From assembly GCA_021825865.1 (NCBI GenBank), contig JAKAFU010000012.1, forward strand, positions 1 to 50,600: a stretch of 50,600 nt of DNA, given 5' to 3'. This document shows positions 3,083 to 36,979 of the stretch, in pieces. How positions within the stretch are numbered: the stretch's first letter is position 1; every line of letters begins with the position of its first letter. This DNA is from a bacterium. GTDB taxonomy: Bacteria; SZUA-79; Acidulodesulfobacterales; Acidulodesulfobacteraceae. The position numbers and the translations under genes are program-made. The notes under the pieces were generated by a model. That model searched no databases, was not told where the DNA came from, and worked only from the letters and a program-made list of their open reading frames with translations.

Positions 3083-4399
3083 ATGATTGTTCTTACGCCG
3101 CAGGAATATAAAATCATATTTTCCGTTGCTGTTTTTCTTTTGACGCTTTTTTTGATTGTCAAAAAACCTTACAATATAGGAATAGGCTACAGCGCAATGA
3201 TAGGCGCCGTATTAGCCTTTGCTTTCGGGATTATCAAATATGCCGATATTTTTAAAGTAGTTGATATTGTATGGGACGCGACCTTTACCTTTGTATCCAT
3301 AATTATAATTTCCCTGATATTGGACGAAGCAGGTTTTTTTGAATGGGCAGCCTTGCATGTTGCCAGATTTGCGGGCGGAAGCGGCAGGAAAATGTTTATA
3401 TACGTCATACTTCTCGGCGCTCTTGTCGCTGCTTTTTTTGCAAATGACGGAGCTGCTCTGATTATTACGCCTATTGTTTATGAAAAAATGAAAGCTCTGA
3501 AATTCCAGAGAAAAAATATGCTGCCGTTTATCATGGCAGGCGGATTTATCGCCGATACGGCTTCGCTTCCGTTTAAGATTTCAAATCTTGTAAATATTGT
3601 TTCTACCGATTATTTCAATATAGGTTTTTTTACTTATTTTATAAATATGTTTGCTCCGGACATTTTTTCTATTATAATTTCAACCGGAGCTCTTTATTTA
3701 TTTTTTAGAAAAGATATACCGGTCAGTTATGATGTAAAATCTTTAAAGATGCCGAAGGAAGCCATTAAAGATGAAAAACTTTTTAAGTATTCATTTTTTA
3801 TTCTGCTTTTTCTTTTAGGCGGATATTTTGCAAGCGAATTCCTTAATCTTCCGGTTTCATTTTTTGCTATGGCTTTTGCGCTGCTCTTTGTATTTTTAGG
3901 ACTGAAAAGCCCTGCCGTTAATTTAAAAAGGGTATTTAAAAATGCTCCATGGAGCATAGTAGTATTTTCAATCGGCATGTACCTTGTAGTTTTTGGTCTG
4001 AAGAATGCAGGACTTACGTATATGCTGGGAAGATTTATTAACTATTTTTCACATTACGGCGGTTTTACGCTCACAATGTTTACGGGATATCTGGCGGCGT
4101 TTACGTCTTCTATAATGAATAATATGCCGACGGTTATGATAAATTCTCTTGCTATTCATTCGGCAAATTTAAAAAGCGCAATGCTAAGACCGGCAGTATA
4201 TGCAAATGTAATCGGATGCGATCTGGGTCCTAAAATAACGCCAATCGGTTCTTTAGCGACATTATTATGGCTTAATGTTTTAGAAAGAAAAGGCATTAAA
4301 ATAAGCTGGGGCTATTATTTTAAAGTAGGAATAATTTTAACCGTTCCGGTCTTGTTTTTTACCCTGCTCGGGTTATATCTGAGATTATTTCTGCTGTGA
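3083..4399 (+). CDS. arsB: ArsB-type arsenite/antimonite efflux membrane protein
   Basis: This 438-residue polytopic membrane protein matches the ArsB branch of the ArsB/NhaD ion-transporter superfamily. Recognisable stretches are IGYSAMIGA near the N-terminus, ISLILDEAGFFEWAALH at about 77-93, FANDGAALIITPIVYE at about 119-134 and GFIADTASLPF at about 154-164. About 11-12 hydrophobic segments are present, as in the family, and the length is normal (about 420-430 in known members). ArsB exports arsenite alone or with an ArsA ATPase; neither arsA, arsR nor arsC is adjacent, so it is probably a single-gene transcription unit. There is no clear Shine-Dalgarno before the ATG at 3083. It ends shortly before the cyclic-di-AMP-controlled kdp region, and no functional link to it is evident. 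Confidence 0.92.
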   Translation: MIVLTPQEYKIIFSVAVFLLTLFLIVKKPYNIGIGYSAMIGAVLAFAFGIIKYADIFKVVDIVWDATFTFVSIIIISLILDEAGFFEWAALHVARFAGGSGRKMFIYVILLGALVAAFFANDGAALIITPIVYEKMKALKFQRKNMLPFIMAGGFIADTASLPFKISNLVNIVSTDYFNIGFFTYFINMFAPDIFSIIISTGALYLFFRKDIPVSYDVKSLKMPKEAIKDEKLFKYSFFILLFLLGGYFASEFLNLPVSFFAMAFALLFVFLGLKSPAVNLKRVFKNAPWSIVVFSIGMYLVVFGLKNAGLTYMLGRFINYFSHYGGFTLTMFTGYLAAFTSSIMNNMPTVMINSLAIHSANLKSAMLRPAVYANVIGCDLGPKITPIGSLATLLWLNVLERKGIKISWGYYFKVGIILTVPVLFFTLLGLYLRLFLL

Positions 4400-4441
4400 T
4401 GCAGCTTTCACGCTTATTTGTCCGGTTTTTTACGATTTTTG

Positions 4442-4470
4442 TTGACAATGTTTTTTATTAATTATATGAT
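4442..4470 (+). promoter_or_regulatory. Putative promoter of the riboswitch-kdp transcript
   Basis: TTGACA at 4442-4447, a 17-bp spacer and TATGAT at 4465-4470 make a near-consensus sigma-70 promoter. Transcription would begin around 4477, about 80 nt before the riboswitch aptamer and about 900 nt before kdpF. Confidence 0.65.
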
Positions 4471-4557
4471 TTAATCAAATATATTACATTAAATGAATTA
4501 AAGTTTTATGGTGCAATCATTAATATAAATATATTATAAATAATCGTTCTTTGAAAA

Positions 4558-4867
4558 TTAAAGCTTAATTTCATTACATTTAATATTAACATTGCGGTTA
4601 ATTTTAAATAAATATAATGAAAGCGGAGAAACCAAGTTATTTGGGGCTAGTATTTTTTGTGAATATTTAAATAATTAATTAATCAATTAATTAGCCAATT
4701 AATGGAATAATACGGCGCAATGTGTTTTATTTTTTTGTATATATATGCATATTGTGCTTGGTTAAATTATTATATTAATTACGTGTAGTTTAGATATTTC
4801 TAAAAAATAAGGGATTACTCTTTTTTATTCCTCGCCCGTCAGCTAACTTCGTAAGCTATTAAAGAGT
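4558..4867 (+). promoter_or_regulatory. ydaO/yuaA-type cyclic-di-AMP riboswitch aptamer
   Basis: The conserved blocks of the ydaO class appear in order. P1 is TTAAAGCTT (4558-4566) with AAGCT (4853-4857) and TTAA (4859-4862), the A at 4858 bulged. The next arm is TTTCATTA with TAATGAAA (about 4568-4575 and 4615-4622). Then come GCGGAGAAACC (4623-4633), TTGGGG (4641-4646), an arm TATTTTTT/AAAAAATA (4651-4658 and 4802-4809), AGGGATTACTC, and the diagnostic GCCCGTCAGCTAACTTCG (4834-4851). ACTCTTT (4817-4823) can pair with AAAGAGT (4861-4867). The class normally shuts off potassium uptake and cell-wall genes when cyclic-di-AMP is high, and the next genes are kdp. The unusual part is a 143-nt peripheral insertion between the arms at 4658 and 4802. 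Confidence 0.9.
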
Positions 4868-5217
4868 GCAATTCGATAATTATTTAATATGGGCGGCGTG
4901 TCATGTGTGTGTGTTTATTTTATTAAAAAACGTTTGCTGTAATTAAATAATGAAATTTGTTTATATTGTTCAGTTGTATTGTTTATGTTAATGCCGTATT
5001 ATTTATGTTAGTGCTGTTTATGTTAATATAATCATGTTATATAATACCTTACTCCGGTAATTAATAATATCATTGTATGGTATTATATTATATCAGCGTA
5101 AAGGATATATAAATAGTAAATATCAACAGCAAATACATATAATAAATACAGACGATAAATAGTTTTATATTATCTTTTAATAAGTACAAATAATAAATAG
5201 TTTTTAGTTTTATCTTT
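4868..5217. other. Long riboswitch-to-terminator linker
   Basis: About 350 bases separate the aptamer from the terminator, with no convincing gene. The stretch is very AT-rich and has three short copies of TTATGTTA[AG]TG-like sequence around 4984-5025. Such a long expression platform is unusual for this riboswitch class. Confidence 0.5.
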
Positions 5218-5255
5218 AATAGCCGAAGGTTTTTACGCCTTCGGCTATTTTTTTT
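5218..5255 (+). terminator. Rho-independent terminator upstream of kdpF
   Basis: A perfect 12-bp stem AATAGCCGAAGG (5218-5229) / CCTTCGGCTATT (5238-5249) with an 8-nt loop runs into eight Ts (5248-5255). It lies after the riboswitch and 122 nt before kdpF, so it is the likely control point. Its 5' arm is also complementary to the 3' strand of the aptamer (4847-4860), which would permit an antiterminated state. Confidence 0.9.
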
Positions 5256-5377
5256 GCTTAAAACATTTAAATATTAAAAAATTAAATAATATTTTAATAA
5301 AATTAATAAATTAACGGCATAACTTAATTATACCGTTATGATCTATATAACATTAATAATGATAGAGGAGGGAATAA

Positions 5378-5464
5378 ATGGTAGAAAATACTATTCTTCT
5401 AATAGTTTCGGTAGCAGTGCTGATATATCTGTTTTATGTGCTGATATATCCCGATAAATTCTAG
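5378..5464 (+). CDS. kdpF: KdpF, small subunit of the Kdp potassium ATPase
   Basis: This 28-residue single-span membrane peptide starts at an ATG with a strong GAGGAGGG ribosome-binding site. It ends YVLIYPDKF, matching the typical KdpF ending (hydrophobic helix, then YxLI.PE/DKF). KdpF stabilises the KdpABC complex in the inner membrane. The position directly before kdpA, apart from one more small gene, supports the call. Confidence 0.85.
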   Translation: MVENTILLIVSVAVLIYLFYVLIYPDKF

Positions 5465-5670: not shown

Positions 5671-5757
5671 ATGTTCGCATTTTTACTGGCATTGGCCGGT
5701 ATTGCTCTAATGTACGCCGTTTTATGGTTTTTGATAGATTTTCTTGACAAACTTTAA
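5671..5757 (+). CDS. Small kdp-associated single-span membrane protein
   Basis: This 28-residue peptide starts at an ATG preceded by AAAAGGAGG with ideal spacing, which decides this start over longer in-frame options from 5530. It is one hydrophobic helix ending WFLIDFLDKL. Tiny proteins ending in a similar xxDxL sequence are found beside kdpF in other bacteria (from memory), but the role is unknown. It sits between kdpF and kdpA, about 195 bp before the latter, and could be a second KdpF-like stabilising subunit. Confidence 0.7.
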   Translation: MFAFLLALAGIALMYAVLWFLIDFLDKL

Positions 5758-5951: not shown

Positions 5952-7676
5952 ATGACTTCTACAGGGATATTACAGATAAGTTTAGTGCTTTTAATAATGG
6001 TTTTAACAGCCATTCCTTTAAGCAGATATCTTGCTCACGTTTTTAAATACGAGCATACTTTCTTAGATAAATTAATTAATCCGTTTGAAAATTTAACGTT
6101 TAAGTTTTTAAAAGTCAATAAAGAAGATGAGATGACATGGACGACTTACTTAAAGATAGGACTTGTTTTCAATTTTCTTATGGCTGCAATCGTATTTCTT
6201 ATACTGCATTATCAGAACTATCTTCCGTTTAATCAGATGCATTATCCGGGTATTCCGTGGGCGCTTGATTTTAATACGGCAATAAGTTTTATAACAAATA
6301 CTAACTGGCAGAATTACGGCGGTGAAGAAGTAATGTCTAATTTTTCACAGATGGCGCTTGTTTTTCTGCAATTTACTTCAGCAGCGACAGGTCTTGTTTT
6401 CGCTGTCGCTTTTATAAGAGGTATTATTAGGCATGAAGCAAAATACGTAGGAAATATTTATGTAGATTTTATTAAGGCTATATACAGAATTTTTATTCCG
6501 CTGTCTATAATATTTGCTATAGTCATGCTTTCGCAGGGCGCTCCTCAAACCTTTACGATGCAGAAAAAGGTAACAAATATAACCGGAACAAAACAGACGC
6601 TGTCGGTAGGACCGGTAGCTTCTATGGTATCTATCGAAAATTTTGGAACTAACGGAGGCGGTTTTTATGATGTTAATGCGGCTCAGCCGTATGAAAATCC
6701 CAATCCGTTTACTAATGCGCTTATAATTTTTATGATGGGCGTAATACCGATAGCTCTTTTTTTCATGTACGGGATAATGATAGACGATAAAAAGCATGCA
6801 TGGACGCTATTCTGGGTAGCGGCAACACTTTTAATAGTCTGCGTCGCCGTGATTTATTCTCAGGAAGCGGCAGGCAATCCGTTTCTTGCGCATCTGGGCG
6901 CTAATGTTACCGCTGCAAAATATAATCCTGGCGGCAATATGGAAGGGAAGCAGGAGCATCTCGGCATTGCGCAGACTTCGCTGTTTGCCGGAGCAACCAC
7001 AGCGTTTACCACGGGTAATGTTGACAGCGCTCATGATAGTTTCATGCCGCTTTCAGGTATGATACTAATGGTTGAAATGATGCTTAACCTCATATTCGGC
7101 GGAAAGGGTGTAGGATTATTAAATATGCTGACTATGGTTATAATAGCGGTATTTATTGCCGGACTTATGGTAGGGCGAACGCCGGAGTTTCTAGGCAAAA
7201 AGATAGGAAAAAAAGAAGTCACGCTTGCGACTCTTGCGATGTTTGCGCACGCTTTTATAATACTCGTGCCGTTCGGTATAGCTATGTCGGTTCCGGCAGG
7301 GCTTGCGGGAATATTTAACCCTGGTCCGCATGGACTTTCCGAAGTGCTGTACGCATTTACGTCAACCGTGGCTAATAACGGGTCTGCTTTCGCCGGTTTA
7401 AACGGAGATACAACGTTCTATAACGTAATATTCGGATTTACCTTAATGTTTGGAAGATATATTCCTATTATATGCCAGGTAGCTATTGCAGGAGCGTTAA
7501 TAAAAAAGAAAAGAATTCCAGAGTCTGCCGGAACCTTTCCTGAACACGGTTTTTTGTTTTATTCGGTCGTAATGGGAACGATAATATTAATCGGAGCATT
7601 GACGTTCTTTCCTGCGCTTGCATTGGGACCTATTGCCGAACATTTTGCAATGGTTAAAGGACATCTGTTTTACTAA
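5952..7676 (+). CDS. kdpA: KdpA, potassium-channel-like subunit of the Kdp ATPase
   Basis: KdpA (574 residues; about 557 in E. coli) forms the potassium-selective pathway of the high-affinity KdpFABC pump in the inner membrane. The four pore-loop regions are recognisable: TNTNWQNYGGE at about 116-126, NFGTNGGGFYDVN at about 232-244, the loop around the GGKGVG stretch at about 384-389, and STVANNGSAF at about 470-479. Ten or so hydrophobic helices are present. The ATG follows a GAGGT ribosome-binding site. Transcription is probably governed by the cyclic-di-AMP riboswitch at 4558-4867. Confidence 0.97.
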   Translation: MTSTGILQISLVLLIMVLTAIPLSRYLAHVFKYEHTFLDKLINPFENLTFKFLKVNKEDEMTWTTYLKIGLVFNFLMAAIVFLILHYQNYLPFNQMHYPGIPWALDFNTAISFITNTNWQNYGGEEVMSNFSQMALVFLQFTSAATGLVFAVAFIRGIIRHEAKYVGNIYVDFIKAIYRIFIPLSIIFAIVMLSQGAPQTFTMQKKVTNITGTKQTLSVGPVASMVSIENFGTNGGGFYDVNAAQPYENPNPFTNALIIFMMGVIPIALFFMYGIMIDDKKHAWTLFWVAATLLIVCVAVIYSQEAAGNPFLAHLGANVTAAKYNPGGNMEGKQEHLGIAQTSLFAGATTAFTTGNVDSAHDSFMPLSGMILMVEMMLNLIFGGKGVGLLNMLTMVIIAVFIAGLMVGRTPEFLGKKIGKKEVTLATLAMFAHAFIILVPFGIAMSVPAGLAGIFNPGPHGLSEVLYAFTSTVANNGSAFAGLNGDTTFYNVIFGFTLMFGRYIPIICQVAIAGALIKKKRIPESAGTFPEHGFLFYSVVMGTIILIGALTFFPALALGPIAEHFAMVKGHLFY

Positions 7677-7779: not shown

Positions 7780-8403
7780 ATGGCAAAAGAATTGATAAAA
7801 ATCATTAAAATGACCGTATTGCTTTATCTGTTATGCAGTATCGCATATACATTTTTAATATGGGGAGTAGGAAAAATATTTTTTCCTTTTCAGGCGGGAG
7901 GCAGTATTATGTACAAAAACTCTAAACCTATAGGTTCAATGCTCATAGGAGAAAAATTTACCTCCCCCTATATATTCAACGGAAGACCGTCTTATGCCGG
8001 AAACGGGTATAACGGCACTGAATCAAGCGGTTCTAATTATGCGCCTACAAACGGTAAATATATTGCTATAGAAAAGAAATTTATAGATAATTTTTTAAAA
8101 GAAAATCCTACTGTAAAGAAAGGCGATGTTCCAGTTGATATAGTTACAGGCTCAGGTTCCGGGCTTGGACCGTACATTTCTATAGCCGCCGCTCTTGACC
8201 AGGTTCCGAGAATTTCAAAATTAACCGGAATAAAAGAAGAGACGCTGCGCAAGCTTGTGATGGAACATATCTCAGGCAGGCAATTCGGAATTTTCGGAAC
8301 GCCTGGATTAAATACGGATAAACTTAATCTTATGCTTGCAGGAATTTTAAAGGTTAAAAATAAGAAATTATTTAAAAAGATTTTTCCGGTTCTTGCAGAC
8401 TAG
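7780..8403 (+). CDS. kdpC: KdpC, accessory subunit of the Kdp ATPase
   Basis: KdpC (207 residues) has one N-terminal membrane helix (about 8-32) and an extracytoplasmic domain with the family signatures FNGRPSYAGNGYNGTESSGSN at about 66-86, VTGSGSGLGPYIS at about 122-134, and LVMEHISGR followed by FGTPG near the C-terminus. It supports assembly and potassium affinity of the pump. A GAGGTG site precedes the ATG. The gene lies before kdpB, whereas in most operons kdpC follows kdpB. Confidence 0.96.
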   Translation: MAKELIKIIKMTVLLYLLCSIAYTFLIWGVGKIFFPFQAGGSIMYKNSKPIGSMLIGEKFTSPYIFNGRPSYAGNGYNGTESSGSNYAPTNGKYIAIEKKFIDNFLKENPTVKKGDVPVDIVTGSGSGLGPYISIAAALDQVPRISKLTGIKEETLRKLVMEHISGRQFGIFGTPGLNTDKLNLMLAGILKVKNKKLFKKIFPVLAD

Positions 8404-8498: not shown

Positions 8499-10547
8499 AT
8501 GTCAAACAAAGCGTATCACGTGTCGGCATTTAACAAAAATATATTGAAAACAGCGATTGCAGAATCATTCAGGAAATTAAATCCCAAAGTAATGATTAAG
8601 AATCCTGTTATGTTCGTGGTAGAAATAGGTGCGGTAATTACAACGGCAATTCTTTTTAAAAATTTATTTTTGCATGATTTTAAGTATATGCTGTTTATTG
8701 TTCAAATCACTTTATGGCTGTGGTTTACGATAATTTTTGCAAATTTTGCCGAAAGTATTTCCGAAGGAAGAGGCAAAGCGCAGGCTGAAACACTTAGGAA
8801 GAGTAAAACCGAGGTTATAGCGCGTTTATTAAAAGCCGACGGAAAAGAAGAAAAAATTAAGGCGTCAATGCTTAGAAAAGGCGATATTGTCGTGTGCGAA
8901 ACTAACGACATCATACCAGGAGACGGCGATGTTATAGAAGGTATTGCATCTGTTGACGAATCCGCTATTACAGGAGAATCTGCGCCCGTAATCAGGGAAA
9001 GCGGAGGAGACAGAAGCGCTGTTACGGGAGGAACAAAAGTCCTTTCCGATAAGATTTCTATAAAAATTACATCAAATCCCGGCGAAGGATTTATTGATAA
9101 AATGATAAGTTTAGTAGAAGGCGCTTCACGGCAGAAGACGCCTAACGAAGTAGCTCTGAATATTCTTCTTGTTATGTTTACCGCTCTTTTTCTCGTAGTG
9201 GTTGTAACTATTGAACCTATGGTTGCGTATTATCACGGTTATATTTCGCCGGTTATATATGTTGCTCTTTTAGTGTGTCTTATTCCTACTACTATTGGTG
9301 CGCTGCTTTCGGCGATAGGTATTTCGGGAATGGACAGGTTAGTTAAGCATAATGTTATTGCTATGTCAGGTAAAGCGGTAGAGGCTGCAGGCGACGTAAA
9401 CACGCTTTTACTTGATAAAACGGGAACGATAACGTTCGGAAACAGAATGGCCGTTAATTTTATTCCTGCAGTGGACGTTAATGTTAACGAATTGGCGGAT
9501 TATGCGCAGCTTTCTTCAATCAGCGATGAAACGCCGGAAGGACGTTCCGTCGTGACGCTTGCAAAAAAATACGGTTTAAGAGGCAGACATTTAGACGAGG
9601 ATAATATAAAATTTATACCTTTTTCAGCTATGACAAGAATGAGCGGCGTTGATATTTTAGACAAAAAAGAAAATATCAGAAAAGGAGCCGTTGAAGCAAT
9701 TTCAAATTATGTTATTCAAAACGGCGGAACTGAAGACAAAAGACTTATAGAAACCGCCGCCGATATTTCAAAACAGGGCGGAACTCCTTTAGCTGTCGCG
9801 GTTAATAACCGTATGCTCGGACTTATTCAGCTTAAAGATGTTGTAAAAGGCGGGATTAAAGAAAGAATCAACAGCCTGAGAAAAATAGGCATTAAAACAA
9901 TTATGATTACCGGAGATAATCCGTTAACGGCAAGGGCTATAGCGGATGAAGCAGGGGTTGACGAGTTCGTTTCAGAGGCAACGCCTGAAACAAAAATGGC
10001 AATCATTAAAAAAGAGCAGTCTTTAGGCAAATTAGTAGCCATGACCGGAGACGGCACAAACGATGCTCCTGCTTTAGCGCAGGCAGATGTCGGAGTTGCC
10101 ATGAACACCGGAACAATGGCGGCTAAAGAGGCAGGCAATATGATTGATTTAGATTCAAACCCGACAAAATTGATTGAAATAGTTGAAACAGGAAAACAGC
10201 TCCTTATTACAAGAGGTTCTCTTACTACATTTTCCATTGCAAACGACCTGGCAAAATATTTTGCAATAATACCGGCTATGTTTGCGCCAATTATGCCGTG
10301 GCTTGCACCTCTTAACATAATGGGTCTGTCTTCGCCTGAGTCTGCAATACTGTCGGCTGTTATATTTAATGCAATTATTATAATAATACTTATTCCTCTT
10401 GCTTTGAGAGGCGTCAAATACAGACCTGCTAAGGCGTCTAATATTTTAACGAGAAATCTGTTGATTTACGGACTCGGCGGGGTAATAGCTCCGTTTATAG
10501 GAATAAAACTTATTGATATGCTGATAACCTATTTTCACATTATCTGA
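8499..10547 (+). CDS. kdpB: KdpB, P-type ATPase catalytic subunit
   Basis: At 682 residues this equals the E. coli length. P-type ATPase motifs are in place: TGES (158-161, actuator domain), DKTGT with the phosphorylated Asp at 306, the KGA nucleotide-binding region, TGDNPLTA and [10 protein letters not shown]. KdpB hydrolyses ATP to drive potassium uptake through KdpA. The ATG at 8499 is preceded by GGAGTG. It lies 95 bp after kdpC in the order kdpA-kdpC-kdpB. Confidence 0.97.
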
Positions 10548-11120: not shown

Positions 11121-12305
11121 TTGAAGATTGAATACAGCAGACCTTCCGCAGATTCTATATTAAATAAAATTAAATATTCTTCAAGCGATACTAACGTTTT
11201 CAGAATATATTTAGGGGCGGTTCCGGGAACAGGAAAAACTTATGCAATGCTTGAAGACGGCAATTATCTGCTTGAGAACGGCATAGATGTTTCAATAGGC
11301 ATAATCGAAACCCACGGAAGAAAGGAAACGGAAAAAGCAATCGGCAAACTTCCGATAATAGCCAGAAAAAAAATAGAATATAAAAATTCAATATTCGACG
11401 AATTAGACGCGGAAGCGATTATCGCAAGGAAACCTAATATCATTTTAATAGACGAACTCGCGCACAATAATATTCCGGGTTCAAAAAATATCAAAAGATA
11501 TCAGGATGCTATTGATATATTTCAATCGGGGATAAGTGTTTTTACGACATTAAATATTTTTCATATAAATTCTATTGCCGAAAAAGTCGAAGCAGAACTG
11601 GGGATTAAGGTTGCCGAAAGGGTGCCTGATTATATTTTAAATTATGTTACGGAAATTATTAACATAGATATACCCGCTAATGAATTGATAAAAAGATTAA
11701 AGGAAGGGAAAATATATTCTAAAGAAAAAATAAATATCGCCCTTGAGAATTTTTTTAAACTTGAAAATCTGATCATCTTAAGAGAACTGTCTTTAAGAAA
11801 AGTTGCCGATGAGCTCAGCGAACAGTCGGCGGATATAGATGATTTAAAAACAAAAAATAAATTAGAATTAAAATCAAATGAAAAAATTCTGGTCCTGATA
11901 AGCTCAAACCCTGATTCTGCAAGACTGCTGAGGATAGGCTCAAAATTAGCAGGCAGGCTTAACTCTAATTTTTATGCACTTCATATAAATTTAAGGAACA
12001 GGCATAAAATTGGAACGAGCAATAAAAATTATGACAAATCGCTTGCAAAGAATATATCGATAGCAGAAAATATGGGAGCGTCAATATTCAGTTTTCAGGC
12101 TGACGATGTTGTGCAGGGCGTGATTGATTTTGTTAAAAAGAATAACGTTTCCCACGTAGTTATAGGCGCTACTAATGTAAAAAAAAATAGAATCGCCAAA
12201 TTTTTTTATAAAAGCGTCGTCAATAAACTTATAGATGCTCTTCCCGATGTTTCTTTTCATGTAGTTCCCACTACGTCTAATAAATTTTCTTCAGACAAAA
12301 AATAA
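11121..12305 (+). CDS. Kinase-less KdpD (KdpD N-terminal plus USP domain)
   Basis: The first about 220 residues match the KdpD sensor domain: Walker A GAVPGTGKT (32-40), THGRKET (64-70) and Walker B IILIDELAHNN (107-117). A universal-stress-type domain follows (about 254-385). The membrane helices, GAF and histidine-kinase domains of full KdpD (about 890 residues) are absent, and no kdpE is nearby, so it cannot act as a two-component kinase. Staphylococcal KdpD binds cyclic-di-AMP through an SxS-X20-FTAxY motif in its USP domain. Here SSN (261-263) and FYALH (284-288) are exactly 20 residues apart, a partial match. The start is a TTG with no Shine-Dalgarno. A good AGGAGGCG site (11061-11068) instead precedes an in-frame TTG at 11076, but three stop codons intervene. 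Confidence 0.85.
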   Translation: MKIEYSRPSADSILNKIKYSSSDTNVFRIYLGAVPGTGKTYAMLEDGNYLLENGIDVSIGIIETHGRKETEKAIGKLPIIARKKIEYKNSIFDELDAEAIIARKPNIILIDELAHNNIPGSKNIKRYQDAIDIFQSGISVFTTLNIFHINSIAEKVEAELGIKVAERVPDYILNYVTEIINIDIPANELIKRLKEGKIYSKEKINIALENFFKLENLIILRELSLRKVADELSEQSADIDDLKTKNKLELKSNEKILVLISSNPDSARLLRIGSKLAGRLNSNFYALHINLRNRHKIGTSNKNYDKSLAKNISIAENMGASIFSFQADDVVQGVIDFVKKNNVSHVVIGATNVKKNRIAKFFYKSVVNKLIDALPDVSFHVVPTTSNKFSSDKK

Positions 12306-32124: not shown

Positions 32125-32826
32125 ATGATTCATAGCCTTGGCATTTTAACTCATATTTTAGACGCGAATATAATAGTAAAATTCGTTCTTTTAATTCTCG
32201 CTTTTTTTTCTCTGACTTCCTGGGCAATTATTTTTTATAAGCTCCGCTATTTAAATAGAGCTAAAAGAGAAAATAAAGAATTTATAGATATTTTTTGGGA
32301 ATCTAAAAGATTGGACTATGTTATGTCTGCCGCTAAAAATTTGGGTTATAGCCCCGTCGCTTCCATGTTCGAGTCTGCATATAACGAATTAGTGAGTCTG
32401 AAGAAAATAGCCGCGGAGGATAAAGAAAAATCCCTGACCGAGTACGATACCAAATTAAACGGCTCCCACTTGGTTGAAAGAGCCTTAAAAAAATCGCAGC
32501 TTTCTTCAATATCAAAATTAGAATTGACTTTGCCTTTTCTTGCTACGACAGGTTCGACTTCGCCGTTTATCGGCTTATTCGGTACCGTCTGGGGCATCAT
32601 GACATCGTTTGAAAGTATTCAAAAAGCCGGAACGGCCGGACTTGCCGTAGTGGCTCCGGGAATAGCCGATTCGCTTGTTGCTACCGCGGCGGGTCTTTTT
32701 GCCGCTATACCGGCCGTCATAGCCTATAATTATTATACTAACAAGGTTAGAGTGCTTGTCAACGAGATGGATGATTTTGCGTATGAATTTATGACAATAG
32801 TAGAAAAACAAATTTTAAAAGATTAA
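32125..32826 (+). CDS. tolQ: TolQ-type proton-channel subunit
   Basis: The 233-residue MotA/TolQ/ExbB protein has a first membrane helix near 18-38, a cytoplasmic domain, and two C-terminal helices with the family signature FIGLFGTVWGIMTSFESI (about 151-168) and VAPGIADSLVATAAGLFAAIPAVIAYN. TolQR uses the proton gradient to energise outer-membrane constriction at division. It starts a five-gene tol cluster, with tolR 6 bp downstream. No Shine-Dalgarno is seen. Confidence 0.93.
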   Translation: MIHSLGILTHILDANIIVKFVLLILAFFSLTSWAIIFYKLRYLNRAKRENKEFIDIFWESKRLDYVMSAAKNLGYSPVASMFESAYNELVSLKKIAAEDKEKSLTEYDTKLNGSHLVERALKKSQLSSISKLELTLPFLATTGSTSPFIGLFGTVWGIMTSFESIQKAGTAGLAVVAPGIADSLVATAAGLFAAIPAVIAYNYYTNKVRVLVNEMDDFAYEFMTIVEKQILKD

Positions 32827-32832
32827 TGAATC

Positions 32833-33276
32833 GTGTTTGTTCAAAATAACAATAGAGAAGAAAAAAATAATTTGTCTTCAAACTATAAATTTATGGCTGA
32901 AATAAACATCACTCCATTTGTTGACGTGATGCTTGTGCTGCTGGTAATATTTATGGTGACGGCGCCCATGCTTGAGCACGGCATAAAAGTTCATCTTCCT
33001 ACCGCATCGGCGCGTGCAATAAAGTCCCCTGAAAAAACTATAGTAGTTTCCATAAACAGTTCGCGGGAGGTCTATATTAATGCGCTAAAGGTTAGTCTGC
33101 CGACATTATCCTCTAAATTGAGGGCTATCTATAAAAATAGAACCGATAAAGAAATATTTTTAAAAGCCGATTCTTCCATACCTTACGGCGTTGTCATAAG
33201 AGTAATGGCCGCCGTAAAAATGGCAGGTATAAGCAAGATAGGTATGGTAACTAAAAATCCTATACTAAAACGTTGA
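32833..33276 (+). CDS. tolR: TolR/ExbD-type protein
   Basis: The 147-residue protein has a short cytoplasmic start, one membrane helix with the essential Asp in INITPFVDVMLVLLVIFMVTAP (about 24-45), and a periplasmic ExbD/TolR domain. It starts at a GTG 6 bp after tolQ, with coupling likely. Starting at the internal ATG (MAEINIT) would remove the cytoplasmic lead, so the GTG is preferred. Confidence 0.93.
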   Translation: MFVQNNNREEKNNLSSNYKFMAEINITPFVDVMLVLLVIFMVTAPMLEHGIKVHLPTASARAIKSPEKTIVVSINSSREVYINALKVSLPTLSSKLRAIYKNRTDKEIFLKADSSIPYGVVIRVMAAVKMAGISKIGMVTKNPILKR

Positions 33277-33367
33277 AAATATACGTTAAAATATTAAAAT
33301 AAATGTCAAATTTTTTTTACAGTTTTAACAATACGATTATTGATAATTATTATTATAGCAATGTATA

Positions 33368-34207
33368 ATGCATAATGAAGATAAAGCTAAAGGAATAGGA
33401 AAATATTATATTGTATCATTCTTGTTTCATGTGCTCCTAATAGGATTGCTGGTTTTTATTTCAATAAAATTTAAATCTAAGATTCAATCGTTAGGTTCAA
33501 AAGTTGTTGTAAGCGTTGTAAGTACTGTTCCAGGACCGCTAGCTTCCACAAGAGCTTTAACCCATTCTATAAAAAAAAATACCGTACGTGCAGTTAAAAA
33601 GCCTGCAGTCATTCATAATAGGCAGCATAAGGTTGCAATAGAGAAGAAGATTGCATCTGTCCCTGTGATCAGTAAAGCAGTCATACCTATTGCTAAATCA
33701 AAATCATCAATGATTTATCCAAAGAAAGTTGCGCGCCGGCACATAAAACCGCAGCCGCATAAAATTGTTCCTCATAAACCGGTTTATACACCGTCCATGC
33801 AGGTATCATCCAGCGTATATTCGCATTTAAGCACAACTATAAGATTAAACAGCGCTTACAGCAAACTGCAAAGTTCTATGATAGCCGGCAATGTTCATAG
33901 ATTCGGCAGCTATATAAGCAAGATAACAAGCATAATTATTTCAAATTTTAATATTAATTTATCCCAGTATCTGCATTTTAAATCTATAATTGCTTTTAAA
34001 ATAACGAAAGGCGGTCTGGTTTACGATGTAAGATTAATAAAGTCATCCGGAAGCGGTTTTTTTGACGCTCAGTCTATAGCAGCCGTAAAATCATCTGCCC
34101 CGCTGCCGCCTCCGCCGCACGGCTTTATGTCTTACATGAACTCTGAAAATGAAAACAACGGTGTTTTAGCTATTTTTTATCCAAAAGAGATATTAAAAGG
34201 TGAATAG
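33368..34207 (+). CDS. TonB/TolA-like periplasm-spanning protein
   Basis: The 279-residue product has a membrane anchor (about 12-34), a Lys/Pro/His/Val-rich extended linker (about 65-140), and a C-terminal TonB/TolA-type domain with VYDVRLIKSSGSGFFDAQSIAAVKSSAPLPPPP (about 216-248). In the Tol cluster it takes the place of TolA, linking TolQR to the outer membrane. The domain alone cannot separate TonB from TolA; position argues for TolA. Confidence 0.85.
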   Translation: MHNEDKAKGIGKYYIVSFLFHVLLIGLLVFISIKFKSKIQSLGSKVVVSVVSTVPGPLASTRALTHSIKKNTVRAVKKPAVIHNRQHKVAIEKKIASVPVISKAVIPIAKSKSSMIYPKKVARRHIKPQPHKIVPHKPVYTPSMQVSSSVYSHLSTTIRLNSAYSKLQSSMIAGNVHRFGSYISKITSIIISNFNINLSQYLHFKSIIAFKITKGGLVYDVRLIKSSGSGFFDAQSIAAVKSSAPLPPPPHGFMSYMNSENENNGVLAIFYPKEILKGE

Positions 34208-34353
34208 CTTACTTAATATAAATATTATATATAATATATATAATATAAACAGTTCTCACAACCTATTAATGTAAATATAAATTAAGTATTAATAAACATT
34301 ATATAAATATAATATTATATAAAATTAAATAAATTAATAAAAAATGAGAGGAT

Positions 34354-35799
34354 ATGCAAAAGATGTTTCAATCGACAAAAATAAATAATGGCTTAGATGC
34401 AGATGCAGCAAAGATAAAATATACAATCGGTTTTAATTATCTTAAATTTAAATCCTCCAGTCTTATATTTTTTTATCTATTTATTTTTATAGTTGCAATG
34501 TTCTGCGGCATTTTATTTAAGCCGCATAATGCCAGTGCAAAAGTTTATATTAACATATATCAGGCAAGTATAAAAAAAATTAGAATTGCGGTGCCTGATT
34601 TCAAAAATTTAACAAAATACAAACAGCATTCTTCCTTGGCATCCAAATTAGCTCATGTAGTACGCCACGATCTTTCTGTTATCGGTTATTTTCATATAGT
34701 AAATCCGCTGTCTTATCTTGAAAATCCGCAAGATGCCCATCTCATCGCATCTAAAATAAAATATTCCGACTGGACGGTATTAAATACTGAATATTTAATC
34801 AACGGTTCCTATAAAGTTAAAGGCGGCCATATCACTCTTAAAGCTAATCTTATAAGTATATATTCGCAAAAACTTTTGTTTAGCGAGGTTCTGGAAGGCA
34901 GTCTCAGCAAAGACAGGTATCTTGCCAATAAGTTTGCCGATGCCGTTTTAAAATTTTTAACAGGCAAAAAAGGACCGTTTACTACAAAAGTTTTTTTTGT
35001 GGGTGAAAAGAACAACGTGAAAAATATATTTGAAATGGACTTCGGAGGACACAGGGTTAAAAGGATAACCGATAACAACTCTATCAATATATTTCCGTAT
35101 CCTTCCCCGGACGGAAAAAAAATAGCCTACATTTCGTTTAAAGACGGAGACCCCGCCGTATTTATAAAAAATTTGATTACAGGCAGGACAACAAAATTAG
35201 ATTTGCCCGGACCGGCTGATTTTGTGAGCTGGTCGCCTAACGGAAAAAAGCTGGCTTTAGCATTGACCCCCGGTCATTATAATACTCAGATATATACGAT
35301 TAATGCCGACGGTAAAGGTTTAAAAAGACTCACAGATACATTTGGAATAAACACGTCGCCGTCATTTTCTCCAAACGGCAACAGAATTGTTTTTGTTTCA
35401 AACCGCGGCGGCGGACCTCAGATATATGTCATGAATTCAAACGGTTCCGATGTTCATATGATTTCTTTTAACGGCAGCTATTACAATACCAGCCCTGCGT
35501 GGTCGCCAAACGGAAAAAAAATAGTTTTTACATCGTTCATCAACGGAGCTCTTCAGGTATGCATTATTAATCCTGACGGGAGCAATGAAAGACAATTGAC
35601 GGATACTCCTTACGGATGTCATCACCCTTCGTGGACAAGGGATTCGAGAATAATATCTTTTGATACCGAATTTGGAGGCAGAGAAGAAATATATTTAATG
35701 GACACCACTGCAAGCGGAATTATGCTTCTGATGCCGCATATTTTTCCGGAGATGCAAAATTATTATAATCCGGCTTGGACGCTTAAATCGACTTATTAA
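34354..35799 (+). CDS. tolB: TolB, periplasmic beta-propeller of the Tol system
   Basis: The 481-residue protein has an unusually long N-terminus (about 33 residues) before the hydrophobic signal segment (about 34-55), the TolB N-domain (IRIAVPDFKN, LNTEYLINGSYK), and five beta-propeller repeats of the type SPDGKKIAYIS / WSPNGKKLALAL / FSPNGNRIVFVSNRGGGPQIYVMN. TolB binds Pal and outer-membrane partners. An ATG at 34363, better spaced from GAGAGGA, could be the true start. It lies 146 bp after the TolA-like gene. Confidence 0.94.
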   Translation: MQKMFQSTKINNGLDADAAKIKYTIGFNYLKFKSSSLIFFYLFIFIVAMFCGILFKPHNASAKVYINIYQASIKKIRIAVPDFKNLTKYKQHSSLASKLAHVVRHDLSVIGYFHIVNPLSYLENPQDAHLIASKIKYSDWTVLNTEYLINGSYKVKGGHITLKANLISIYSQKLLFSEVLEGSLSKDRYLANKFADAVLKFLTGKKGPFTTKVFFVGEKNNVKNIFEMDFGGHRVKRITDNNSINIFPYPSPDGKKIAYISFKDGDPAVFIKNLITGRTTKLDLPGPADFVSWSPNGKKLALALTPGHYNTQIYTINADGKGLKRLTDTFGINTSPSFSPNGNRIVFVSNRGGGPQIYVMNSNGSDVHMISFNGSYYNTSPAWSPNGKKIVFTSFINGALQVCIINPDGSNERQLTDTPYGCHHPSWTRDSRIISFDTEFGGREEIYLMDTTASGIMLLMPHIFPEMQNYYNPAWTLKSTY

Positions 35800-36076
35800 A
35801 ATTTTAAAATTTTTTTTAAAATTTAGAGTTATTAACAACTTAAAATATATTTGCAGTAAAAACGCACAGAAAGATTAGCAGAGAGATTAACATAAAGATT
35901 AACCGTAGCCATTTTATAATTTTATTGATAAAAGTAGATATATGAAATATATGCCAAATTTTTCTCATTTATAGTTGATAAATTTTCTTAATACATATAA
36001 AATAAAGATAAAAATTCTATTTCTGTAAAATTTATTTACAAAGACAAATTAAAAATAAAATTAGAGGATTGATATT

Positions 36077-36979
36077 ATGCCGATAACAATAAAAGAAAAA
36101 GATGCCGTAAATAAAAAACATATTTTCCATTATTTTAAAATTGTTTCTTTATTATCTTTGTGTATTTTTACGTTTTCTTTTTTATTGTCGGGATGCGCTC
36201 AAATGGAACCGGACACGATACATCATCTTAAAATTCAGGTGCGCAATTTAAACAAAAAGGTTATTAATCTATCGCAAAATTCAACAGATTCAGAGCAGGC
36301 TCTTCATCAAACTCAGGTAAATGTTGCTAATCAGGGCGCAAAAATTGCAAGTATAAAATCAAATCTCAGTTCATTATACGGGAAATATGAAATTATTTCG
36401 CATGATATGAAATTGCTTCAAACGGAATTTAGAAATTATAGAATATTGGTAAATAAAGAATTAATAAAGCTGCTAAAAAAAGAAAAGTTTAAATCTTCCG
36501 CCATATCAAAACAAAAAATAACATCTAAAATTACTCCGAAAATTGCAATCGTTAAAGTTAAACCTGCACATAAAATTTCGGTAAAACAGCTTGCGCTCAG
36601 AAAAGAACTGAAAGAATACGGCAGTGCTAAATCGTATTATAAGAAAGGTTCGTATAAGAAAGCATTAGCTTTATTTAAGAAATATCTTAATAAATATCCT
36701 CAATCTCAAAAGTCGGGTGATGCAAATTATTATAAATCCGTTTCTAATTTCAAATTGAAAAATTACCCTGTGTCTATTCTTGAATTTCATAAATTTACAA
36801 GACTTTATCCAAAAAACAAACATGTAGCTATGGCAATATATCTGCAGGGCATAGGCTTCTCCAAATTGTCCGACCCTTCAGATGCTATTATTTTGTTTAA
36901 ACAGGTTATAGCTGAGTACGGTTCCAGTAAGGCGGCAGCGTTAGCTAAATCGGCATTAGAAAAATTAGCGAAACAGTAA
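36077..36979 (+). CDS. cpoB: CpoB/YbgF-type cell-division coordinator, as a lipoprotein
   Basis: The 300-residue protein has a lipoprotein signal (hydrophobic about 22-37, lipobox LLSGC with Cys40), a heptad-like coiled coil (about 46-115), a basic linker, and C-terminal TPR repeats (YYKKGSYKKALALFKKYLNKYPQS; FKLKNYPVSILEFHKFTRLYPKNKH; DAIILFKQVIAEYGSS). This is the CpoB layout, which couples Tol constriction to peptidoglycan synthesis. E. coli CpoB is soluble; here it carries a lipid anchor. A GAGG site supports the start. No pal gene lies between tolB and this gene, unlike the usual order. Confidence 0.88.
   Translation: MPITIKEKDAVNKKHIFHYFKIVSLLSLCIFTFSFLLSGCAQMEPDTIHHLKIQVRNLNKKVINLSQNSTDSEQALHQTQVNVANQGAKIASIKSNLSSLYGKYEIISHDMKLLQTEFRNYRILVNKELIKLLKKEKFKSSAISKQKITSKITPKIAIVKVKPAHKISVKQLALRKELKEYGSAKSYYKKGSYKKALALFKKYLNKYPQSQKSGDANYYKSVSNFKLKNYPVSILEFHKFTRLYPKNKHVAMAIYLQGIGFSKLSDPSDAIILFKQVIAEYGSSKAAALAKSALEKLAKQ

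Follow-up and report, generated by a model that had tools for sequence, protein, structure and literature searches.

A predicted c-di-AMP riboswitch led by a boxA-like element in the kdp leader of an uncultivated Gram-negative lineage

The window, the whole 50,600-nt stretch of DNA analysed here, carries a kdp operon on the forward strand with the gene order F-A-C-B. The first gene that the leader described below would control is kdpF (5378–5464; 28 aa; PF09604, 8.8e-10), followed by kdpA (5952–7676; PF03814, 2.9e-215), kdpC (7780–8403; PF02669, 3.1e-55) and kdpB (8499–10547), the last assigned from its position and P-type ATPase domains (PF00122, 1.5e-32; PF00702). Further downstream on the same strand lies a short KdpD (11121–12305) with the sensor domain (PF02702, 5.1e-78) and a weak, partial USP domain (PF00582), for which Pfam gave no HisKA or HATPase match. 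Across the lineage, the KdpD open frames were 213–404 aa long, with the shortest ones truncated at contig ends. A further ORF of 28 aa (5671–5757; MFAFLLALAGIALMYAVLWFLIDFLDKL), predicted to form a single helix, lies between kdpF and kdpA and is possibly a second KdpF-like subunit; small ORFs like it occupy the corresponding position in L126, L129 and L131. Directly 5′ of the kdp promoter is an ArsB/CitM-family transporter gene (3083–4399; PF02040, 4.1e-156), and upstream of the kdp region is a gene for a c-di-GMP-type regulator with protoglobin, GAF, GGDEF and EAL domains (71–2761). Genes at 32125–36979 read as TolQ, TolR, TonB/TolA-like, TolB and YbgF-like, as named from their translations. 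Since this Tol-like cluster points to an outer membrane, we took the host to be Gram-negative; it is uncultivated and probably an acid-mine-drainage bacterium. For Ca. Acidulodesulfobacterales, the presumed lineage here, expression of kdpABC in acid mine drainage has been reported (PMC6776010).

Upstream of kdpF, the initial annotation had described the conserved blocks of a ydaO-type riboswitch, and we confirmed them there: every element of the RF00379 aptamer could be placed within 4563–4867 of the forward strand. The aptamer is closed by a short P1 (GCUU 4563–4566/AAGC 4853–4856), in which a U-A pair is replaced by C-G in the related leader L012. Next to it is an enlarged P2 hairpin (4569–4622), formed by UUUCAUUA (4569–4576) and UAAUGAAA (4615–4622), with compensatory changes in four of the six counted pairs and 100% of cells paired. 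The core helix (GCGGAG 4623–4628/CUUCGU 4847–4852) was paired in 14 of 14 sequences, its outer pair varying between G-U, G-C and A-U, and a small hairpin, CCAA..UUGG, leading into the conserved GGGGC block (4632–4644) fits the RF00379 consensus. Both the P6 hairpin (GGGA..UUCC, 4811–4831), which showed GC to AU covariation, and the conserved core CCCGUCAGCUAAC (4835–4847) belong to the match with the 3′ half of RF00379. The segment 4835–4867 thus holds the core, the 3′ strands of the core helix and P1, and the 3′ strand of a pseudoknot between the P6 loop (ACUCUUU, 4817–4823) and the 3′ tail (AAAGAGU, 4861–4867), of which the inner six pairs were found in all 14 sequences and the outer pair in half of them. 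The hallmarks of RF00379, namely the core motif, P1, the core helix and P6, were therefore all present and paired.

The structure was then evaluated in an alignment of 14 leaders from which the variable arm interiors had been removed. The 34 pairs formed in 95.6% of cells, compared with at most 65.6% in slid controls, a percentage that is biased towards the structure because the structure was drawn from these same 14 sequences. There were nine compensatory pairs (4.7 in shuffles and 0–2 in slid controls) and 32 double-change cells (10.0 in shuffles), and we regard these double changes as stronger evidence for the proposed fold than the paired percentage.

The match to RF00379 across 4558–4867 that the initial annotation had anticipated was not obtained at the curated gathering threshold of 38 bits. 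A whole-window Rfam scan gave nothing over threshold but one tRNA and missed RF00379, and a permissive scan reached 19.1 bits for the aptamer as a whole, below threshold, with the 5′ half placed in an insertion within the aptamer (see below); this placement (4745–4873) was discarded as a misalignment. When the halves were searched separately, the 3′ half (4797–4873) matched RF00379 with 36.1 bits (E=1.5e-7 over 4227 families) and the 5′ half gave a truncated match of 13.1 bits. The window was missed because two arms of the aptamer are enlarged, rather than because the aptamer is absent. In genomes of the same order, RF00379 was found over the cut-off at 12 sites, and short-armed relatives with the same leader scored 54–89 bits. 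A search with the core pattern located the aptamer at 18 places in 16 genomes, and the reversed pattern gave none. The blocks of the window aptamer line up with those of these copies. Weaker RF00379 matches of 15–20 bits (L014, L016, L017 and L021–L023) were without the core motif, look like chance and were set aside. A custom covariance model (R1) still misplaced the 5′ half of the window aptamer, and since it contains the window sequence it is not independent evidence. Thus whole-sequence Rfam scans miss c-di-AMP riboswitches with long arms, which are recoverable via relatives. Judged from sequence and comparison, the assignment of the leader before kdpF to the c-di-AMP (ydaO/yuaA, RF00379) class appears right, and binding of c-di-AMP by the window aptamer would be expected.

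The absence of any diadenylate cyclase gene had been named as an argument against this class; the genome, however, encodes a diadenylate cyclase domain (PF02457, 1.6e-40), so that objection falls away. The ORF reads as CdaA, with DGA and RHRSAIG motifs, and is followed by CdaR-like and GlmM-like ORFs, all judged from the translations. The DAC domain was present in 19 of 19 near-complete genomes of the order. Among the relatives, which are metagenome bins, KdpA was found in 21 of 30 genomes, and genomes without kdpA had no aptamer except G020, in which the copy faces a contig end. Two kdp operons occur in each of the genomes G014 and G018, and every one of these operons has its own aptamer. No aptamer was detected within approximately 1.5 kb upstream of three kdp loci (L126, L129 and L131, in G009, G022 and G028), and the kdp loci of G003, G011 and G025 are truncated by the end of a contig. 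The idea that the riboswitch-less loci keep a full KdpD failed, as KdpD is short there too. Taken together, the cyclase and the RF00379 matches in the leaders of relatives support the earlier proposal of a c-di-AMP riboswitch upstream of kdpF in a Gram-negative bacterium.

The leader also contains the parts expected of a transcriptional switch. A predicted sigma-70 promoter, TTGACA-17-TATGAT (4442–4470, forward strand), agrees with the consensus at 11 of 12 positions and is the best in the region; because promoter-like sites in total were not above shuffles, it is a prediction only. TTGAC(A)/TATA-like pairs are also present upstream of the leaders of relatives. Downstream of the aptamer, an AU-rich linker of about 345 nt leads to an intrinsic terminator on the forward strand, AATAGCCGAAGG..CCTTCGGCTATT with a T-tract (5218–5255; hairpin 5218–5249), whose 13-bp stem has six GC pairs and a dG of −19.9. 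The terminator, AATAGCC..GGCTATT plus a T-run, was found in 17 of 17 distinct leaders, 69–416 nt after the core motif. STnc240 and suhB-like matches at this place were rejected as matches to the terminator hairpin. An antiterminator strand, GCUAUUAAAGA or GCUAUUAAAG(A) (4855–4865, forward strand), is common to P1 and the pseudoknot, and its partner, UCUUUAAUAGC or (U)CUUUAAUAGC (5213–5223, forward strand), overlaps the 5′ arm of the terminator. The two segments are exact complements, GCUAUUAAAG being the perfect complement of CUUUAAUAGC. A complement of 10–12 nt at the terminator arm was found in 16 of the 17 distinct leaders, the top-listed matches of L020 lying elsewhere, and the pairing probability of the antiterminator was 0.98–1.00 in 13 leaders with the aptamer 5′ half absent. 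As the antiterminator strands hardly vary, little covariation comes from them. The leader thus combines an intrinsic terminator with an alternative helix that involves an aptamer strand, and we infer that this expression platform works as a classic c-di-AMP OFF switch.

We consider it probable that a c-di-AMP riboswitch shuts the kdp operon by early termination, in a transcript that starts with boxA. RNA polymerase would start near 4477 and transcribe boxA (4546–4562), after which the aptamer (4563–4867) would fold. At high c-di-AMP, that is when potassium is replete, P1 and the pseudoknot would hold GCUAUUAAAG, the terminator would form and kdp would be off; at low c-di-AMP, under potassium starvation, the pairing of GCUAUUAAAG with CUUUAAUAGC would break the terminator stem and kdpFACB would be read. 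Since the KdpD encoded here is without a kinase domain, the riboswitch may stand in for KdpDE. Potassium uptake through Kdp would thereby be under the control of c-di-AMP in a lineage that is uncultivated and Gram-negative and in which the KdpD kinase is apparently missing.

Between the promoter and the aptamer lies a boxA, GTTCTTTGAAAATTAAA (4546–4562, forward strand), a predicted recruitment site for NusB–S10 that matches the rRNA boxA of the same genome. Neither this element nor the terminator/antiterminator pair is mentioned in the initial annotation. The copies before 16S and 23S read GGTCTTTGAAAACTAAA and GCTCTTTGAAAATTGAA respectively, and the joint 17-mer pattern GNTCTTTGAMAAYTRAA, which was composed to cover the three boxA sites of the window genome, has exactly three sites there: the 16S leader, the 16S–23S spacer (ITS) and the kdp leader. 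In 30 related genomes, the same pattern gave 31 sites compared with none for the reversed control; 14 were in kdp leaders, 13 at rRNA operons, two before repeat arrays and two at contig ends, the last two matching the 16S leader type. Its core, GTTCTTTGA, was present between the promoter and P1 in all leaders with upstream sequence. Among 19 c-di-AMP riboswitches of other phyla, in genomes of Firmicutes type and Chloroflexi type, none had a boxA block within 450 nt of the core. A limited search of the open-access literature found no report of a boxA paired with a riboswitch, and to our knowledge no earlier riboswitch is coupled to one. The boxA-led riboswitch appears to be new, and we regard boxA as a more interesting feature of the leader than the insertion.

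The boxA may recruit NusB–S10, whereupon elongation through the untranslated leader of approximately 900 nt would become processive and Rho-resistant. We give about even chances to the proposal that boxA loads an rRNA-type antitermination complex ahead of the aptamer; at the intrinsic terminator, hundreds of nucleotides downstream, a more processive complex resistant to Rho would then take the ligand decision, and kdp expression would be subject to Nus factors in addition to c-di-AMP. Some of the sister leaders are short, with an aptamer-to-terminator linker of 57 nt in L006, so protection from Rho seems less needed there, which counts against the anti-Rho purpose that Nus recruitment would presumably serve. 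If boxA works as proposed, the leader combines ligand-gated intrinsic termination with processive Nus antitermination, two kinds of control that are mostly investigated separately. It would also offer a natural system in which to follow the effects of an rRNA-type elongation complex on riboswitch timing.

The 17-mer block could instead be a part of the switch itself, with GUUCUUUGA pairing to the AAAGAG strand of the aptamer (UUCUUU/AAAGAG) and rivalling the pseudoknot. Six pairs including one G-U can indeed be drawn from the sequence, and the block forms a small hairpin in the MFE fold. However, the match to the rRNA boxA runs past the hexamer (GAAAATTAAA), the 17-mer consensus elsewhere marks only rRNA operons and CRISPR-type arrays, the hexamer is unchanged in L005 and L007 where its partner is AAAGGG, and the spacing to P1 varies in L012 and L005. 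We therefore think this role unlikely and retain the reading of the block as a boxA. That the likeness to the aptamer arose by chance in an AU-rich leader has a negligible probability: the whole-window scan stayed under threshold and a 14-genome control gave matches in many genomes at E≤10, but the E-value of the 3′ half, the compensatory changes and the retention of the core pattern in 16 genomes with none for its reverse speak against it, and the 54–89 bit matches in relatives already refute it. A further alternative is a decayed riboswitch, in which c-di-AMP sensing has been lost through an A to C change at a junction and a weak P1, leaving kdp to partial read-through. The one core departure of the window aptamer is indeed C at 4833, at the junction before CCCG, which it shares with L015 and L018, whereas 18 of 19 copies in the outgroup carry A; this C could lower ligand affinity, although it concerns a single consensus position that is not decisive on its own, and P1 consists of just GCUU/AAGC. 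The remaining core positions, the helices, the pseudoknot, the terminator and the antiterminator are nevertheless all kept, and one outgroup copy (L180) also has C at the junction yet passes the Rfam cut-off. Decay is accordingly a poor explanation in our view, and a functional c-di-AMP aptamer is preferred.

The insertion at 4658–4802 was proposed in the initial annotation, as a 143-nt element, to be an extra sensor or a ribozyme-like domain. It falls exactly between the base strands (4652–4658 and 4802–4808) of an expanded peripheral hairpin on the forward strand (4652–4808), which pair with each other. The arms in the leaders surpass their dinucleotide-shuffled versions in stability (z −2.6 to −3.8; −3.1 for the window arm) and a long arm is present in every leader found in the genus, both of which would suit a functional second domain of 145 nt, be it a sensor, a protein site or a ribozyme, rather than a neutral extension. 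Against this, the base pairs merely prolong the hairpin, and the distance from GGGGCNANU to the P6 loop is 166–203 nt in the genus of the window, whereas 18–67 nt suffices in sister genera. The extra sequence is AU-rich and differs in both length and sequence between two subclades, and among 4227 Rfam families (E≤10) no plausible match to a ribozyme or a second aptamer was found in 4400–5400. The P2 arm is likewise longer in the window subclade. A second domain is thus not supported and we hold it to be very improbable; the insertion reads as a lengthened, fast-diverging hairpin that may reflect growth of the arm within a genome of AU-rich composition.

The c-di-AMP riboswitch class is on record in Proteobacteria, Cyanobacteria and Verrucomicrobia, and also at kdp; for the kdp riboswitch of Bacillus thuringiensis, which accompanies a truncated KdpD, the OFF logic has been demonstrated (PMC6488665). 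The window leader resembles that of the B. thuringiensis kdpFABC operon in aptamer class, operon, downstream intrinsic terminator, long 5′ UTR and a truncated KdpD in place of a working KdpDE (PMC6488665). Unlike the latter, it is found in a Gram-negative bacterium, its P2 and peripheral arms are enlarged, the linker to its terminator is long, and a boxA lies upstream of its aptamer. In sharing GNTCTTTGAMAAYTRAA with the 16S leader and the 16S–23S spacer, and in lying close to where a long untranslated RNA begins, the boxA of the kdp leader is like that of rRNA operons (PMC5725501, PMC4807359), but it precedes a riboswitch and an mRNA, and Nus binding here is predicted from sequence. A boxA ahead of protein genes is known from gamma-proteobacteria (PMC5725501), and one ahead of CRISPR arrays from Stringer et al. 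2020, as cited in PMC7862264. The CRISPR-array boxA is likewise a non-rRNA use that aids transcription of a long non-coding stretch; the downstream element in the kdp leader differs in being a predicted ligand-controlled terminator. Among the related genomes, boxA-consensus sites lie beside repeat arrays in L200 (1501–3000) and L189 (1083–1382), with repeats spaced at 61–67 nt, which we call CRISPR-type from the repeat form alone. The repeat of L200 ends in AATTTCTACTGTTGTAGAT, which we take to resemble Cas12a repeats.
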